From Artemia franciscana (Eukaryota > Arthropoda > Branchiopoda > Anostraca > Artemiidae): DNA of 64,000 bases. A program made the translations under genes and the position numbers. Below, piece by piece: positions 40,887 through 64,000 of the stretch (within the stretch, counting starts at the first letter, position 1; the number at the start of each line of letters is the position of its first letter). Below the pieces are notes generated by a model. That model ran no database searches. It was not told the origin of the DNA and saw nothing but the letters and a program-made list of their open reading frames with translations. Location of the stretch: contig NC_088875.1 of NCBI RefSeq assembly GCF_032884065.1, positions 45,964,214 to 46,028,213 of the forward strand, written 5' to 3'.

Positions 40887-42250
40887 TTAACTGCGTAAAA
40901 CTTGCGAATATACAACATTCTTCGCTGTCCAATTGTCGCTGCATATAAATAGATTGTCAGGTTTACCGACCCTCGAACATGCAACGTACAATTGTCCATG
41001 GGAAAAACAATCAGTATTAAGATCTATACCACATTTTTCTAATGATTGACCTTGAGCTTTGTTAATGGTGATTGCAAATGCTAATCGAATTGGGAATTGC
41101 GATCTTTTAAATTGAAAAGGCAGATCCGTTGGAATCATGGGAATGCGAGGAATAAGAACAGCCTTACCCTCAAAATGCCCTGTCAAGATTGTCGCCTTTA
41201 TTAGGCTTTCCATTGTTTTTTTTACGGCAAGTCGCGTGCCATTGCAAAGCTTTGGTGGGTCGCCTATTTTTAGTTGTAGCACGTGTGGTGGAAACCCTGA
41301 AAGATATATGGAATTTAAAAATTCAGATGGATAATTAACCGCTTCATTTGGTTCCAAAACTGTGTCGACTGACTTGCAAAGGACTGCCTGGTCTCGAATC
41401 TTGGTCAAAACAATATTGTTGATTTCGTGGACGTCTATATTTTTGGGTGCGAGAATCGCTCTTTCACTTAGCCATTTATTATTTTTATAATTTTTTAGAA
41501 TATTCGGAAATACTTTTTCAATCAATTCATTTTTGGACGTCACTAAACTACAGAAATCAGCAGGTAGTTGTATACGTCCTGAAATTGAGTCTATCGTATC
41601 ATAAATGTCTTTTTGTTCCGACGTTAACTTGTAAATGTTATTTTGTACATACGACAATAGATCACTCGTACTGTAACTTTGTTCACGATCCAATTCTACA
41701 CATGTCGAAACAGCAGCGATACGGTTAGGTGAAGGCATTCCCAAATCCTGAAGAGGTTTGTTTGCCATACGTACGCACAAATCTTCTATAATAACTAAAG
41801 TGTCGTTATAAATTTCTGATGTAAAATCAAAAGTCATTTCTGACGTCTCTAACTGTTTTCGATGGAGTATATCTTCGGACATTTTTGACTTATATTTTTC
41901 CCATAACTCTGTAGGAGCTGATGGAGAGCAAGTGTACGAATTTGACTTGGGGTTGACGTTTCGCACGCGTCATTGATGCAGTTATCCCAGTGTTGGTCAT
42001 TCTCCAATAAATTCAGAGCTTGGCATGCACTACGGTAAGTGTCATGTATAGTACCGTTTACAGTTCTCAAATACTCAAAGGATGTCGGACCGGGTACATT
42101 CACCAAAAGCAGGCGTAGAAAGAAGCATTCATGTTGATTGGGGTGAACGGTGTAGAGTCTTCCTATCGTGGTATCTTTGAAGATGGTAGGTTGGCCGTAA
42201 ACCCACTGGTTATCTACTTCGATGGTGGTACCGTTGCCATTGTAGGTTTT
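40887..42250 (-). pseudogene. Helitron Rep/helicase gene fragments with internal deletions
   Basis: Reading from 42250: GNGTTIEVDNQWV, then a junction to TIGRLYTVHPNQHECFFLRL, LLVNVPGPTSFEYLRTVNG (helicase-proximal part of Helitron Rep-Hel), down to TPSQIRTL. A frameshift near 41950 follows. Then, in an open 359-codon frame (to 40887): TCSPSAPTELWEKYKSKM, LTSEQKDIYDTID, SGRIQLPADFCSLV, NELIEKVFPNI, FPPHVLQLKIGDP, LAFAITINKAQGQSLEKCG and [13 protein letters not shown], ending QVLRS. Between YDTID and SGRIQL about 190 residues with Walker A, Walker B and motif III are gone. Between DNQWV and GRLYTV the residues that usually include the long linker, and with it everything upstream including the HUH Rep core, are missing. 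The remaining parts are well conserved, so the loss looks recent. Confidence 0.85.
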
Positions 42251-43712: not shown

Positions 43713-43812
43713 NNNNNNNNNNNNNNNNNNNNNNNNNNNNNNNNNNNNNNNNNNNNNNNNNNNNNNNNNNNNNNNNNNNNNNNNNNNNNNNNNNNNNNNN
43801 NNNNNNNNNNNN
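43713..43812. other. Assembly gap (100 N)
   Basis: Exactly 100 N bases, the usual size for a gap of unknown length. The real distance between the flanks is not known. Confidence 0.99.
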
Positions 43813-48324: not shown

Positions 48325-48490
48325 CTCTTTCCATACTTGATATGGATAAAAACAAAGACAACACCTAAAACCAAGCAAATACTCCCAACAACAATATAGG
48401 CTATTCCAAGAAATGGATTTTTCCCGCCTATTGCTGATGTTGTTGATAAAATGAATCTTTTTGTCCCATCAAATGACGTCACTGGATAAT
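48325..48490 (-). CDS. CDC50/TMEM30 exon with the C-terminal membrane segment
   Basis: CDC50 proteins are the beta subunits of P4-ATPase lipid flippases and are needed for their ER exit and activity. This 166-bp exon encodes (N)[35 protein letters not shown] and [20 protein letters not shown], matching the family signature [18 protein letters not shown] followed by the second transmembrane helix and a basic end. The acceptor is TTTCCTCAG and the donor AAAGAG-GTTAGT. Its first two bases complete the Asn codon split by the donor at 51749, giving NYN-YPV as in other CDC50 proteins. The short cytosolic tail exon is missing from the window or unrecognised. Confidence 0.92.
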
Positions 48491-50679
48491 CTGAGGAAAC
48501 AAACAGCACAAATTAGTTGAATGGCAAAAAGTATGAATAAAGACAAAAGTAAACCAGTAACTATAGCTCAACACAATATCCTTTACAATATAACTCTCTG
48601 GAGAACCTCCCATTAACATGCACAGCTTATACTGTCAGACCTCTGACAAGACTCTAGGCACATATTGATTTATTTAACTGAGAACCTCTCTGCAAAATGA
48701 AAAGCTCAAAGCACAAATGGAAAAACTAAGTCAGAACAAAAAAAAAAAATTTCAGAAAAAAACGACAACAGTAGTAAATTGTGGCGAAATGTAAGAAAGA
48801 AATATAAAAAAAATGGCAGATCAAACAGGAACTGTTAACTGTAGGCAACCTACTCATTTTTTTATCTTTTAAAGATAAATTTGTCAAAGATAAAAATAAA
48901 TTTAATTTGTCAATAAATCTTAAAACGATACTGAAACGCAAAAAGCAAATCAAGGGCCAACGCTCTTGAAACTCTCACCAATATTCACCCCACGTTAAAT
49001 CCGCATTCTTCTGTTAGTCACTCAGCAAAAAGTATTTTATGCCTTTTGCAAAACAACTCACAAGAAATATGGAAGAGCACGAGCTATAATCATAATTAAG
49101 GATTTATCGTCAAATATCGCCACAAAATGTTAAAGCTGCCTGCCCATGGTGGTATGTGGAGCAGATGTTGGCAAAATGAAAGAGGGGAGAGGGGGCCTCT
49201 CCTTTATGGATTTTCAACTAGAAAATCTACTAGAAAGACATTACACAGAGAATGTGAGGCATCAGGACAGCGTTGTAAAGACTAGCGAGGTACAAAGAGA
49301 TGAAATGAAGTATTCGGGAGGCGTAGAGGGCAGATGTAAGATAAGAAAACTGTGAATACGACGGATACTAGTTACAGGCACATGTCCAAACAATGATTGG
49401 CCAGTGATTGTCGAAATATTGGCAAACAACAATTTTTGGAACATGAAACCGATAACAATCAAGATGTAATCTCTAAACATCAAAACCATCACGAAATTCC
49501 TTATAAAACGCAGACGAAAAATTCAAATTTCCAGACTTATTATTGTTCTACTTAAAAGCCTCGGTTACGTTATATAAATTCAGAATCACATTATACGGAA
49601 CCCACAAGGTCCTGATAGACTTGAAGTTGGGGTCACACATCAAAAGCGCCATCTACTTATTCGTTAATTATTGGACCTTGCCAACATAGACTAAAAAATA
49701 TGGTGTGGCGACGCAGTGGGATTGATCTCTGCTGGAGACTCGAGTTCCATTTCAGCTGCAACATCCCACCCCGCAGCAGATCCCAGAATTTGATTTCGGT
49801 GACGAGATTATACGGAGGTATCTCAACAATGATAAAAAAAAAGAACATGGAGTAATATATATGTAGTAATCAAATATATTGTTTTTGTTGAATCTTTGAC
49901 GGGCCTTTTTTTCCATCAGAATCCTTACACATTGTAATATAACAGTATTTTACCATTTTAACACAAATGAATACTTTAAATTTTAGAAGGAAATGCGAGC
50001 TTTTCGTAATGATCACCTTGAAATTTCGTTGCCTCCAAAGAAAAAGTGCATCGATGGAGAAAGAGTCACATGATCGGCATTCTATTTTGTTTATAAACTA
50101 TTTATAAATAACAAAAAACGAGAGGAGAAGAGTGACTATTTCAAACAAGTTTCAACTGAGCTTATACGAATCAAGCTTAATGTTAAACAAACTCAAGCTT
50201 AAACAAACCAAGCAACTAAGTTCCAATCAAGCTTAAAAAGACAAGCTTAATTATTAAAGCTTAATAAAACTAGGATTTAAATTATGATTTTGATTTTGTT
50301 AAGTTTGATGATATTTTGTTGATCTTAATGATTCAAAATAAATACGGGTATTAGCAGTAGATCACAACCCTCTGTACAGTCGCGTTTACAGAGGAATGAA
50401 GTTTACAATGTAACTAAAGCCAATGTAACTATACATAATGTTAGTAAAAAAATTTTAATACCTAAATTAATTTAATATGATATAACTAACTTGAAAATAA
50501 TTTGACTAAAAGCTTGTATTTCTGTTGAAATACAAAAAAAAAAAAAATGGCGTAAAACAAGTTTTAGGAGGTACTAGATTTTTGATCCTTAATATTCAGT
50601 TATGTCGCAGCAAAGGTTTATAAATTTGAAAAAAGAAACAGAATTTTATTTTACAAAACTTTCACTTCTGCACTCGAAC
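48491..50679 (-). other. CDC50 intron, 3' part
   Basis: Intron DNA with a 187-bp block at 49492-49678 repeated in the next intron. A tRNA-like word run near 49710-49760 (TGGCGACGCAGTGGG) may be a decayed SINE. Several GCTTAA-rich words occur at 50150-50270. Confidence 0.5.
49492..49678. repeat. 187-bp block, copy 1
   Basis: CGAAATTCCTTATAAAACGC to CGTTAATTATTGGACCT is also present at 54168-54354 with one mismatch seen by eye. It has no inverted ends. Both copies lie in CDC50 introns. Confidence 0.93.

Positions 50680-50755: not shown

Positions 50756-50842
<87 letters not shown>
50756..50842. repeat. Poly-T tract, 87 bases
   Basis: An uninterrupted T run (poly-A on the CDC50 strand). A shorter T run sits at 51479-51500 in a related setting, so the flanking unit was duplicated with its poly-T. 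Lys-only frames are artefacts. Confidence 0.97.
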
Positions 50843-50934: not shown

Positions 50935-51749
50935 TTGTAATTCCGGTATTATTCCAAGACTTACTATATTTTACTTGAAGAGTATAATTTCCTTTTGGTA
51001 AGCCATTTTTAAACTTTGCACCTGGTTTATCGTCCCACATTATACTTATTTTACTTGACTTGCTATATTTTACTTGAAGAGTATAATTTTCTTTTGGTAA
51101 GCCATTCTTAAACGTAGTTGCACTAAATTATCATGCCATATTATACTCATTTTACTTGACTTAATAAATTTTACTTGAAGAATATTATTTCCTTTTGGTA
51201 AGCAATTCTTAAATGTAGTTACACCTGGTTTATCGTGTCATATTCTACTTATTTTACTTGACTTACTATATTTTACTTGAAGAGTATAATTTCCTTTTTG
51301 TAAGTTATTTTTAAACGTAGTTGCACCTGCTTTATCGTGCCATATTATCTCAATGATAAAATTTCAAGGACTGTTATTTTCATTCCAGGACTTACTGTAT
51401 TTTAATTGAAGAGTATAATTTCCTTTTGGTAAGCCAATCTTAAACGTAGTTGCACCTGGTCTATATGGAGTAAAACAAGTTTTTTTTTTTTTTTTTTTTT
51501 TAATAAGTTTAGACTGGAATGTGATGACAGTGAAGTCAAATAATTCGATTTTAACAAGGACAGAAATTTTCACCAATCAGGCAAACGACTAAAATAGTAA
51601 TTCAGGTTTTATTCCATGAATTACTGTATTTTCCTTGAAGAGTATAATTTCCTTTTGGTGAGCCATTTTTAAACGTAGTTGTACCTGGTTTATTGTGCAT
51701 ATTATCTCTATAATATTTCCCGAACTATTATTTTTATCCCAGGACTTAC
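50935..51749 (-). repeat. Tandem array of CDC50 exon-end copies, six partial pseudo-exons
   Basis: Six diverged copies of the last ~90 bases of the exon at 51750-51986 lie directly downstream of it on the CDC50 strand. Each encodes parts of WHDKPGATTFKNGLPKGNYT then LQVKYS. Copy ends (donor positions) are near 50960, 51060, 51160, 51262, 51390 and 51620. The first four are spaced at about 100 bp, the others at about 130 and 230 bp. Donors: copies at 50960, 51262 and 51390 keep AGTAAGTC; 51060 has GC in place of GT; 51160 has lost it; 51620 has GTAATT. None keeps the exon's acceptor. Confidence 0.9.
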
Positions 51750-51986
51750 TGTAGTTTACTTGAAGAGTATAATTTCCTTTTGGTAAGCCATTCTTAAATG
51801 TAGTTGCACCTGGTTTATCGTGCCATATTATGCGATAAAGTTTCCTGAATTGGGGGAGGGCCGCCGTTCGCATCCATACAATAAAATCTTCATTTAAAAA
51901 GCCATTGTTTTCCGGATTTTGTTCATCCAATTCCCAAATATTTTTGGACCAAGACAGTGGCTTTGCCCATTCTGAGGTATTATAAG
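51750..51986 (-). CDS. CDC50/TMEM30 exon, central ectodomain
   Basis: This 237-bp exon encodes (A)YNTSEWAKPLSWSKNIWEL, DEQNPENNGFLNEDFIVWM, RTAALPQFRKLYRIIWHD and NGLPKGNYTLQVNY. The NNGFxNEDFIVWMRTAALPxFRKLYR block is the most conserved part of the CDC50 ectodomain. A glycosylation sequon NTS is near the start. The acceptor is TTTTTTTTAG and the donor ACA-GTAAGT; both ends are phase 1 and agree with the neighbours at 58132 and 48490. Reading past the donor stays open to 51589 through a frameshifted copy of the exon end, so intron retention would add about 50 unrelated residues. Confidence 0.93.
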
Positions 51987-54055: not shown

Positions 54056-57000
54056 TGTGTCTAATGACTACTTTTTGCATTACAAAGACAAAAACACCGT
54101 TGCTCTACCAATATCATACTACTATACCATTAAAATAAATATGATATAGTAATAGTAACAATATAGTCGAAATTCCTTATAAAACGCAGACAAAAAATTC
54201 AAATTTCCAGACTTATTATTGTTCTACTTAAAAGCCTCGGTTACGTTATATAAATTCAGAATCACATTATACGGAACCCACAAGGTCCTGATAGACTTGA
54301 AGTTGGGGTCACACATCAAAAGCGCCATCTACTTATTCGTTAATTATTGGACCTACGTTCGGCCCTAATGACTACTTTTTGCATTACAAAGACAAAAACA
54401 CCGTTGCTCTACCAATATCATACTACTATACCATTAAAATAAATATGATATAGTAATAGTAACAATATAGTCGTGATAAAATCCAACACACTAGTCACTA
54501 GTGACTAGTAGAAAAATCCATCTGATTAACTCTTCACAATGACAAAAACAGCGCTGTTCTACCACTATAATACTACTATACCATTAAAATAAACATGATA
54601 TAGTAATAGCAACAATACAGCCGTGATAAAATCCAATACACTAGTCACTAGTGTGTCACTAGTGACAAGTGGAAAAATCTCTCAGATTATCCTTACACAA
54701 TGACAAAAACGGCGTTGTTCTACCACTATAATACTACTATACCATTAAAATAAATATGATATAGTAATAGCAACAATACAGCCGTGATAAAATCCAATAC
54801 ACTAGTCACTAGTGTGTCACTAGTGAAAAGTGGAAAAATCTCTCAGATTATCCTTACACAATGACAAAAACGGCGTTGTTCTACCACTATAATACTACTA
54901 TACCATTAAAATAAATATGATATAGTAATAGCAACAATACAGCCGTGATAAAATCCAATACACTAGTCACTAGTGTGTCACTAGTGAAAAGTGGAAAAAT
55001 CTCTCAGATTATCCTTACACAATGACAAAGTCGGCGTTGTTCTCCCACTATAATACTACTATACCATTAAAATAAATATGATATAGTAATAGCAACAATA
55101 CAGCCGTGATAAAATCCAATACACTAGTCACTAGTGTGTCACTAGTGAAAAGTGGAAAAATCTCTCAGATTATCCTTACACAATGACAAAGTCGGCGTTG
55201 TTCTACCACTATAATACTACTATACCATTAAAATAAATATGATATAGTAATAGCAACAATACAGCCGTGATAAAATACAATACACTAGTCACTAGTGTGT
55301 CACTAGTGACAAGAGGGAAAATCTCTCAGATTATCCTTACACAATGACAATAACGCCGTTGTTCTACCACTATAATACTACTATACCATTAAAATAAATA
55401 TGATATAGTAATAGCAACAATACAGCCGTGGTAAAATCCAATACACTAGTCACTAGTGTGTCACTAGTGACAAGTGGAAAAATCTCTCAGATTATCCTTA
55501 CACAATGACAAAAACGGCGTTGTTCTACCACTATAATACTACTATACCATTAAAATAAATATGATATAGTAATAGCAACAATACAGCCGTGATAAAATCC
55601 AATACACTAGTCACTAGTGTGTCACTAGTGACAAGTGGAAAAATCTCTCAGATTATCCTTACACAATGACAAAAACGGCGTTGTTCTACAACTATAATAC
55701 TACTATGCCATTAAAATAAATATGATATAGTAATAGCAACAATATAGCCGTGATAAAATCCAATACACTAGTCACTAGTGTGTCATTAGTGACAAGTGGA
55801 AAAATCTCTCAGATTATCCTTACACAATGACAAAAACGGCGTTGTTCTACCACTATAATACTACTATACCATTAAAATAAATATGATATAGTAATAGCAA
55901 CAATACAGCCGTGATAAAATCCAATACACTAGTCACTAGTGTGTCACTAGTGACAAGTGGAAAAATCTCTCAGATTATCCTTACACAATGACAAAAACGG
56001 CGTTGTTCTACCACTATAATACTACTATACCATTAAAATAAACATGATATAGCAATAGCAACAATACAGCCGTGATAAAATCCAACACACTAGTCACTAG
56101 TGTGTCACTAGTGACAAGTGGAAAAATTTCTCTGATTAACTGTTCACAATGACAAACACAGCGTTGTTCTACCACTATAATACTACTATACCATTAAAAT
56201 AAATATGATATAGTAATAGCAACAATACAGCCGTGGTAAAATCCAATACACTAGTCACTAGTGTCACTAGTGACAAGTGGAAAAATCTCTCAGATTATCC
56301 TTACACAATGACAAAAACGGCGTTGTTCTACCACTATAATACTACTATACCATTGAAATAAATATGATATAGTAATAGCAACAATACAGCCGTGATAAAA
56401 TCCAATACACTAGTCACTAGTGTGTCACTAGTGACAAGTGGAAAAATCTCTCAGATTATCCTTACACAATGACAAAAACGGCGTTGTTCTACCACTATAA
56501 TACTACTATACCATTAAAATAAATATGATATAGTAATAGCAACAATACAGCCGTGGTAAAATCAGATACACTAGTCACTAGAGTGTCACTAATGACAAGG
56601 GGAAAAATCTCTCAGATTATCCTTACAAAATGACAAAAACAGCGTTGTTCTACCACTATAATACTACTATATCATTAAAATAAATATGATATAGTAATAG
56701 CAACAATACAGCCGTGATAAAATCCAACACACTAGTCACTAGTGTGTCACTAGTGACTAGTGGAACAATCTCTCTGATTAACTGTTCACAATGACAAACA
56801 CAGCGTTGTTCTACCACTATAATACTACTATACCATTAAAATAAATATGATATAGTGATAGCAACAATACAGCCGTGGTAAAATCCAACACACTAGTCAC
56901 TAGTGTGTCACTAGTGACAAGTGGAAAAATCTCTCAGATTATCCTTACACAATGACAAAAACGGCGTTGTTCTACCACTATAATACTACTATACCATTAA

Positions 57001-57752
57001 AATAAATATGATATAGTAATAGCAACAATACAGCCGTGATAAAATCCAACACACTAGTCACTAGTGTGTCACTAGTGACAAGTGGAAAAATCTCTCTGAT
57101 TAACTGTTCACAATGACAAACACAGCGTTGTTCTACCACTATAATACTACTATACCATTAAAATAAATATGATATAGTAATAGCAACAATACAGCCGTGA
57201 TAAAATCCAATACACTAGTCACTAGTGTGTCACTAGTGACAAGTGGAAAAATCTCTCAGATTATCCTTACACAATGACAAAAACGGCGTTGTTCTACCAC
57301 TATAATACTACTATACCATTAAAATAAATATGATATAGTAATAGCAACAATACAGCCGTGATAAAATCCAACACACTAGTCACTAGTGTGTTACTAGTGA
57401 CAAGTGGAAAAATCTCTCTGATTAACTCTTCACAATGACAAAAACAGCGTTGTTCTACCACTATAATACTACTATAACATTAAAATAAACATGATATAGC
57501 AATAGCAACAATACAGCCGTGGTAAAATCCAACACACTAGTCACTAGCGTGTCACTAGTGACTAGTGGAAAGATCTCTCTGATTAACTCTACACAATGAC
57601 AAAAACAGCGTTGTTCTACGACTGGAATACTACTACGCCATTAAAATAAACATGATATAACAATAGCAACAATACAGCCGTGATAAAATCCAACACACTA
57701 GTCACTAGTGTGTCACTAGTGACTAGTGGAACAATCTCTCTGATTAACTGTT
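54056..57752. repeat. 161-bp satellite array, ~21-23 copies, in a CDC50 intron
   Basis: Monomer words: ACAATGACAAAAACGGCGTT, GTTCTACCACTATAATACTA, CTATACCATTAAAATAAATA, TGATATAGTAATAGCAACAA, TACAGCCGTGATAAAATCCA, then nested palindromes CACTAGTCACTAGTG and TGTCACTAGTGAC. The CCGTGATAAAAT word recurs at steps of about 161 bp (54621, 54782, 54943 and on to 57681). Left-edge monomers are diverged, and one is interrupted by the 187-bp block at 54168-54354. Confidence 0.96.
54168..54354. repeat. 187-bp block, copy 2, inside the satellite
   Basis: The same sequence as 49492-49678 with one mismatch. It separates two diverged satellite monomers that share the word TAATGACTACTTTTTGCATT (54060 and 54367). 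Confidence 0.93.
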
Positions 57753-61019: not shown

Positions 61020-64000
61020 ATTCCCAAACAAGTCATATCCAAGGGAACGTCCAGCTTGAAAAGATGTGATGTAATTAAAATGAAAATGAGGCTTTGATCT
61101 TCTATTACCCCATTAAGGCTTGAATGTCATTTGCACTGTACAGAAACAAGTCATATCTAGGGGAACGTCCAGCTTGAAAAGATGTGACGTAATTAAAATG
61201 AAAATGAGGCTTTGATCTTCTATTACCCCATAAAGGCTTGAATGTCATTTAACTGTACAGAAACGAGTCAGGTCCAGAAGAACGTCATATCCAGGGTAAC
61301 GTCCAGCTTGAAAAGATGTGACGTAATTAAAATGAAAATGAGGCTTTGATCTTCTATTACCCCATAAACCCTTGAATGTCATTTGCACTGTACAGAACAA
61401 GTCATATCCAGGGGAACGTCCAGCTTGAAAAGATGTGACGTAATTAAAATGAAACTGAGGCTTTGATCTTCTATTACCCCATAAAGGCTTGAATGTCATT
61501 TGCACTGTACAGAAACAAGTCATATCCAGGGGAACGTCCAGCTTGAAAAGATGTGATGTAATTAAAATGAAAATGAGGCTTTGATCTTCTATGACCCCAT
61601 AAAGGCTTGAATGTCATTTGCACTGTACAAAAACAAGTCATATCCAGGGGAACGTCCAGCTTGAAAAGATGTGACGTAATTAAAATGAAACTGAGGCTTT
61701 GATCTTCTATTACCCCATAAAGGCTTGAATGTCATTTGCAATGTAACGGAAACGAGTCATATCCAGGGGAACGTCCAGCTTGAAAAGATGTGACGTAATT
61801 AAAATGAAAATGAGGCTTTGATCTTCTATTACCCCATAAAGGCTTGAATGTCATTTGCACTGTACAGAAACAAGTCATATCCAGGGGAACGTCCAGCTTG
61901 AAAAGATGTGATGTAATTAAAATGAAAATGAGGCTTTGATCTTCTATTACCCCATAAAGGCTTGAATGTCATTTGCACTGTACAGAAACAAGTCATATCC
62001 AGGGGAACGTCCAGCTTGAAAAGATGTGACGTAATTAAAATGAAAATGAGGCTTTGATCCTCTATTACCCCATAAAGGCTTGAATGTCATTTGCACTGTA
62101 CAGAAACGAGTCATATCCAGGGGAACGTCCAGCTTGAAAAGATGTGACGTAATTAAAATGAAAATGAGGCTTTGATCTTCTATTACCCCATAAAGGCTTG
62201 AATGTCATTTGCACTGTACAGAAACGAGTCATATCCAGGGGAACGTCCAGCTTGAAAAGATGTGACGTAATTAAAATGAAAATGAGGATTTGATCCTCTA
62301 TTACCCCATAAAGGCTTGAATGTCATTTGCACTGTACAGAAACGAGTCAGGTCCAGAAGAACGTCATATCCAGGGGAACGTCCAGCTTGAAAAGATGTGA
62401 CGTAATTAAAATGAAATTGAGGCTTTGATCTTCTATTACCCCATAAAGGCTTGAATGTCATTTGCACTGTACAGAAGTACAGAAACAAGTCATATCCAGG
62501 GGAACGTCCAGCTTGAAAAGATGTGAAGTAATTAAAATGAAAATGAGGTTTTGATCTTCTATTACCCCATAAAGGCTTGAATGTCATTTGCACTGTACAG
62601 AAACAAGTCATATCCAGGGGAACGTCCAGCTTGAAAAGATGTGATGTAATTAAAATGAAAATGAGGTTTTGATCTTCTATTACCCCATAAAGGCTTGAAT
62701 GTCATTTGCACTGTACAGAAACAAGTCATATCTAGGGGAACGTCCAGCTTGAAAAGATGTGACGTAATTAAAATGAAAATGAGGCTTTGATCTTCTATTA
62801 CCCCATAAAGACTTGAATGTCATTTAACTGTACAGAAACGAGTCAGGTCCAGAAGAACGTCATATCCAGGGTAACGTCCAGCTTGAAAAGATGTGACGTA
62901 ATTAAAATGAAATTGAGGCTTTGATCCTCTATTACCCCAGAAAGGATTGAATGTCATTTCCACTGTACAGAAACGAGTCATATTCAGGGGAACGTCCAGC
63001 TCGAAAAGACGTGACGTAATTAAAATGAAAATGAGGATTTGATCTTCTATTACCCCATAAAGGCTTGAATGTCATTTACACTGTACAGAAACAAGTCATA
63101 TCCAGGGGAACGTCCAGCTTGAAAAGATGTGACGTAATTAAAATGAAAATGAGGCTTTGATCTTCTATTACCTCATAAAGGCTTGAATGTCATTTGCACT
63201 GTACAGAAACAAGTAATATCCAGGGGAACGTCCAGCTTGAAAAGATGCGACGTAATTAAAATGAAAATGAGGCTTTGATCTTCTATTACCCCATAAAGGC
63301 TTTGAATGTCATTTGTACTGTACAGAAACAAGTCATATCCAGGGAAACGTCCAGCTTGAAAAGATGTGACGTAATTAAAATGAAAATGAGGCTTTGATCT
63401 TCTATTACCCCATAAAGGCTTGAATGTCATTTGCACTGTACGGAAACAAGTCATATCCAGGGGAACGTCCAGCTTGAAAAGATGTGGCGTAATCAAATGA
63501 AAATGAGGCTTTGATCTTCTATTACCCCATAAAGGCTTGAATGTCATTTGCACTGTACAGAAACGATTCAGGTCCAGAAGAACGTCATATCCAGGGTAAC
63601 GTCCAGCCTGAAAAGATGTGACGTAATTAAAATGAAATTGAGGCTTTGATCTTCTATTACCCCATAAAGGCTTGAATGTCATTTGCACTGTACAGAAACA
63701 AGTCATATCCGGGGGAACGTCCAGCTTGAAAAGATGTGACGTAATTAAAATGAAAATGAGGCTTTGATCTTCTATTACCCGATTAAGGCTTGAATGTCAT
63801 TTGCACTGTACAGAAACAAGTCATATCCAGGGGAACGTCCAGCTTGAAAAGATGTGACGTAATTAAAATGAAAATGAGGCTTTGATCTTCTATTACTCCA
63901 TAAAGGCTTGAATGTCATTTGCACTGGACAGAAACGAGTCAGGTCCAGGGGAACGTCCAGCTTGAAAAGATGTGACGTAATTAAAATGAAAATGTGGCTT
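61020..64000. repeat. 118-bp satellite array, ~25 copies, runs off window end
   Basis: Monomer words: AAACAAGTCATATCCAGGGG, AACGTCCAGCTTGAAAAGAT, GTGACGTAATTAAAATGAAA, ATGAGGCTTTGATCTTCTAT, TACCCCATAAAGGCTTGAAT, GTCATTTGCACTGTACAG. The period is 117-119 bp. A 16-bp longer variant (GAGTCAGGTCCAGAAGAACG) occurs near 61266, 62345, 62840 and 63567. Minus-strand frames up to 177 codons are translations of the monomer and not genes. The array is not finished at 64000. Confidence 0.96.

Follow-up and report, generated by a model that had tools for sequence, protein, structure and literature searches.

The window, a stretch of 64,000 nucleotides of the Artemia franciscana genome, carries on its minus strand the 3' portion of a gene of the CDC50 family (TMEM30-type). 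Exon D of this gene scored above the curated cut-off of Pfam CDC50. Joined to exon E, with VNY before the junction and NYPV behind it, it hit 13 distinct PDB sequences; Cell cycle control protein 50A came first (E 6.7e-43), and 50B and fungal Cdc50/Lem3 followed at lower ranks. Upstream exons lie inside the window at 58263-58132 and outside it at 74005-73816 and 80994-80845 (coordinates continued), with ends placed by eye at AG and GT. The upstream introns of the gene contain a satellite of 161-bp units (54494-57746) and another of 118-bp units (61026-64000) that runs past the window. An intronless CDC50-like gene with an open frame of 350 aa, diverged from the window gene, is found on the minus strand of another contig (C18, L007:1462-2514). 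We rejected it as a retrocopy witness of splicing: it is a diverged paralogue with 52.5% identity over exon D and consequently says little about splicing.

Behind exon D, the last 65-89 nt of the exon together with the start of the intron recur in six further, decaying copies between 51705 and 50965 (Table 1). The true exon end is called c0 here and the repeats c1 to c6 in transcript order.

Table 1. Exon D, the array behind it and the host intron, in window positions
Feature	Position	Strand	Remarks
Exon D	51986-51750	-	237 nt; phase 1 at both ends; likely source of the array; Pfam CDC50 and PDB matches, junction; last base 51750
True donor GTAAGT	51749-51744	-	G at 51749 (GTAAGTC); then type A intron tail 51742-51705
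Copy c1	51705-51625	-	donor GTAATT at 51624; then tail C with 22 A
Tail C of c1	51620-51480	-	ends in 22 A; pairs with c6 tail
Copy c2	51460-51396	-	donor GTAAGT at 51395; then tail A
Copy c3	51348-51267	-	donor GTAAGT at 51266; then tail B
Copy c4	51246-51165	-	donor TTAAGT at 51164, dead; then tail B
Copy c5	51144-51064	-	GC donor GCAAGT at 51063; then tail B
Copy c6	51043-50965	-	donor GTAAGT at 50964; 3-nt deletion; then tail C
Tail C of c6	50963-50756	-	ends in 87 A
Host intron	51749-48491	-	3259 nt
Exon E	48490-48325	-	next exon of the CDC50 gene; first base 48490

The sixfold repetition of the exon end claimed by the sequence-only reading is thus real. Counting the exon itself, seven copies stand in register, at steps of 99, 101, 102, 129, 229 and 125 bp, and the repeats agree with the 89-nt exon end at 80/88 (c1), 68/72 (c2), 81/89 (c3), 79/89 (c4), 79/88 (c5) and 79/86 (c6) positions. 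Outside the array, the intron (50900-48500) offers no ungapped match better than 42/89, and shuffling the intron mononucleotides 100 times gave 44/89 at best. That reading had further described steps of about 100 bp followed by longer units carrying poly-A. The steps agree with this, but only one inter-copy unit carries poly-A, the 22 A after c1. A run of 87 uninterrupted A on the transcript strand (50756-50842) stands beyond the last copy. When exons A, B, C, the first part of D and E were compared by blastn with the window plus 20 kb (E <=0.05), no second array was found; besides self-matches there were two weak short ones. Upstream of exon D, a stretch of 34 nt on the minus strand (52221-52188) resembles the 5' part of the exon (51970-51937), with a score reached in 1/300 block shuffles of the nearby intron sequence and in 0/100 of the whole intron. 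It may be the relic of an older copy, or a chance resemblance.

The copies fall into classes by what follows their donors: a type A tail of some 40-50 nt of intron (c0, c2), a type C tail of more than 100 nt ending in poly-A (c1, c6) and a short type B tail (c3-c5). The two type C tails share 79% identity (51623-51503 against 50963-50849). Copy c2 begins mid-unit at ACCAGG, directly behind CCATATAG. This start follows CTTGTTTTACTCCAT-ATAG, giving a block junction that reads CCAT-ATAG-ACCAGG. Downstream of the c6 tail CTTGTTTTACGCCAT is present again, and a second CTTGTTTTAC-CCAT lies at 50565-50547. The direct repeats hold both exon and intron sequence of one gene, as expected of an intragenic tandem duplication that crosses a splice boundary.

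With their seventh base, the donors read GTAATTC in c1, GTAAGTC in c2, c3 and c6, TTAAGTC in c4 and GCAAGTC in c5, so the count of at least three AGTAAGTC donors and one GC donor made from the letters was correct. GTAAGT occurs four times in the 3,259-nt intron, at the true donor and in c2, c3 and c6 only, and the donor 9-mer of c2 is identical to that of the true site; one GTGAGT lies at 49061. A ladder of decoy 5' splice sites therefore exists as sequence. The statement that no copy has an acceptor needs correction, since c2 stands directly behind CTTGTTTTACTCCATATAG, whose AG and short pyrimidine-rich stretch make it a candidate acceptor.

We consider it very probable that the array is a tandem repeat derived from the end of exon D that drifts neutrally in the intron. 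Copies, tails and junctions are observed, and from them we infer an order of duplications. A segment of about 125 bp, made up of the final ~80 nt of exon D with some 40-50 nt of the intron behind it, would have been duplicated in tandem to give c0 and c1. The block running from ACCAGG of c0 through c1, its tail, the poly-A and CTTGTTTTAC-CCAT would then have been duplicated, making c2 the sister of c0 and c6 the sister of c1. Later, a unit of about 100 bp with a shortened tail would have multiplied inside the second block, between c2 and c6, producing c3-c5. Different orders of these steps, combined with gene conversion, are possible. The copies would be expected to leave with the intron, spliced from the true donor. 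Derivation from exon D is supported because the copies cross the exon-intron boundary and, within the limits of the search described below, have no other site in the assembly apart from short matches around the poly-A run. Hence, of the suggestion that this is a young satellite born from an exon, the origin stands. The youth is not supported: divergence between paired tails (K2P 0.19 for c1/c6, 18/107; 0.21 for c0/c2, 7/38) argues against a young array, provided that ordinary rates apply in this species.

The same uniqueness bears on whether a dispersed repeat resembles or includes the exon by chance, as the poly-A tails and repeat-rich surroundings might suggest. We searched the assembly (1.27 Gb, 6468 contigs) with the 915-bp array and with the tail, by a method that leaves out very common words and scores the best candidates only. 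Within these limits, the array found itself and five matches of 30-33 bases around the poly-A run, and the tail (51620-51503) found only itself and 50959-50849. No copies of a dispersed satellite or retroelement were seen elsewhere, and as far as this search reaches the sequence is confined to its gene of origin. A genome-wide repeat unlinked to CDC50, named beforehand as what would speak against the exon origin, was likewise not found, short poly-A matches apart. Moreover, the repeated body is a coding exon end. Within the reach of this search we therefore rejected a dispersed element, which we rate as very improbable. We give hardly any credence to an assembly artefact: repeats and a homopolymer of 87 A are hard to assemble, but the copies differ from the exon by 6-11% and carry distinct tails and indels, and the sole N run of the window (100 N, 43713-43812) is 7 kb away.

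If the copies were neutral, their donors and codon positions should change like the rest, and on the whole they do, although seven sequences of one array give such comparisons little power. Substitutions relative to the consensus were spread evenly over the codon positions (9/160, 12/154 and 10/156). In the 57 nt before the donor the exon frame is open in 6/6 copies, with a simulated probability of 0.40 that no copy would have a stop, and 15/21 changes are nonsynonymous against 15.2 expected. The copies thus show no sign of the coding constraint of a duplicated alternative exon. On these figures we rejected a coding function for them; in addition, c4 has an in-frame TGA and c1 and c5 have one-base deletions, which lie upstream of the best-kept part. 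Donor positions +1 to +6 changed at 3/36 against 31/476 elsewhere (Fisher p 0.72), and GTAAGT is intact in 3/6 copies where 4.0 are expected at the overall rate. Within this one array, and with low power, the donors are therefore not conserved above their flanks as those of a functional alternative site would be. A structured RNA was also rejected for the array: the window has no Rfam match at the gathering score, and the array folds no better than its shuffles (z +1.35, 19/20 shuffles folding at least as well). Two observations count against the neutral reading. The exon-derived body is less diverged than the tail between c0 and c2 (4/72 against 7/38, p 0.045), a difference compatible with constraint acting on c0, with homogenisation of copies or with a body under weak constraint. 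Between c1 and c6 the figures are 9/85 and 18/107 (p 0.30), the body giving 5/68 on the shorter stretch from ACCAGG. In addition, all three extra GTAAGT of the intron sit in copies, and c2 shares its donor 9-mer with the true site.

Use of the decoys would carry a cost in frame. As the sequence-only reading held, the frame from exon D stays open through c1, to a stop at 51591, and the c1 donor would change the phase: it adds 125 nt (2 mod 3) and leads to a stop codon 9 nt inside exon E, with about 156 nt of that exon still to come. The donors of c2, c3, c5 and c6 all lie beyond the stop at 51591. Since all five decoys other than c4 would give an early stop, none would yield a longer working protein, and none of c1, c2, c3, c5 and c6 would keep the frame as a functional tandem alternative donor should. 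Decoy use would thus be predicted to give truncated products or transcripts for decay. The ladder is real as sequence, which by itself speaks neither for nor against an effect on splicing. Nothing shows that the decoys do anything, their donors and the coding positions changing at the pace of the remaining sequence.

It is nevertheless tempting to ask whether the ladder might bind U1 snRNP and compete with the true donor, the truncated transcripts acting as a leak or a brake on CDC50. Three extra GTAAGT within 785 nt, one of them with the true-site 9-mer, and none elsewhere in the intron would suit this, as would the stop that every decoy but the dead c4 brings, in exon E for c1 and at 51591 for the others. 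Between equal donors the intron-proximal site reportedly tends to win (work of Reed and Maniatis), which would also favour the decoys. However, the donors change like their neighbours (3/36 against 31/476), one is dead and two are weakened. Exon definition should moreover disfavour strongly lengthened exons, and extension would produce exons of 362-1022 nt. On balance we regard such competition as unlikely. It is slightly more doubtful still that the series of repeated exon ends with their 5' splice sites might titrate U1 so that copy number tunes the output of full-length CDC50, as if nature had carried out the classical experiment with duplicated donors. Copy c2 might alternatively act as a 65-nt poison exon with the AG of ATATAG as its acceptor. 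It has CTTGTTTTACTCCATATAG immediately before it and an intact GTAAGT behind, and inclusion from ATATAG would bring an in-frame stop within c2, but the short pyrimidine stretch has poly-A immediately on its upstream side, and we consider this reading quite improbable.

A neutral array of exon origin is also in keeping with its surroundings. In 18 arbitrary 10-kb stretches of the genome, 25106/180000 bases (14%) belong to tandem arrays of period 50-500 and 10/18 stretches have at least one; one stretch is satellite throughout, and without it the count is 15106/170000. The corresponding share of the window is 15.8%. As arrays are common in this genome, capture of an exon end by duplication is not surprising.

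The nearest published relatives that we found are tandem duplications within genes that span a splice boundary. In the potato RdRp gene, a tandem genomic duplication across an intron-exon boundary likewise copied splice signals (PMC4974935); it lies on the acceptor side, however, and made a new intron, whereas the CDC50 array involves the donor side, seven times over. Fission yeast genes with a multiply duplicated 24-bp exon segment holding AGGT (as described in PMC4974935) resemble it in having several head-to-tail exon pieces in one gene, but there the piece is exonic and introns span the copies, while the CDC50 copies include intron and stand behind the donor. The intronic VNTR of ABCA7, reported to affect splicing (PMC5954066), is likewise an intron-borne tandem array, and an effect on splicing is conceivable for the CDC50 array too; in the latter the unit is an exon end with its donor. 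Reporters with competing 5' splice sites (PMC1877881) have more than one such site behind one exon, as here, but the CDC50 decoys are natural, decayed and only putative sites. Among the matches listed, judged by titles and abstract starts, there was no comparable exon-end array, which is no proof of absence. The array is thus an unspectacular instance of intragenic boundary duplication, a kind already known, and stands out by its number of copies.

If splicing uses the first donor alone, the locus is a natural experiment in how the true exon end is chosen over three nearby GTAAGT, one in an identical 9-mer. If the decoys are used, gain or loss of copies in arrays of this sort would offer expression a simple way to vary. 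Otherwise the array is a further record of tandem duplication capturing exon boundaries in a repeat-rich genome.

Other observations were made on the repeat content of the window and the assembly. An open frame of 360 aa on the minus strand (40887-41969) matches the Pif1 2B domain and is perhaps a Helitron remnant. The assembly contains 75 COX1 matches, of which many are fragments and many lie on the large contigs C1-C21, and nuclear copies of mitochondrial DNA are likely abundant in it. On one COX1 contig, ND2-like and COX2-like frames lie around COX1 (invertebrate mitochondrial code, by eye), an arrangement that would fit an arthropod. ARAGORN with the bacterial code detected no tRNA on this contig, which might be either the mitochondrial genome itself or a copy of it in the nucleus.
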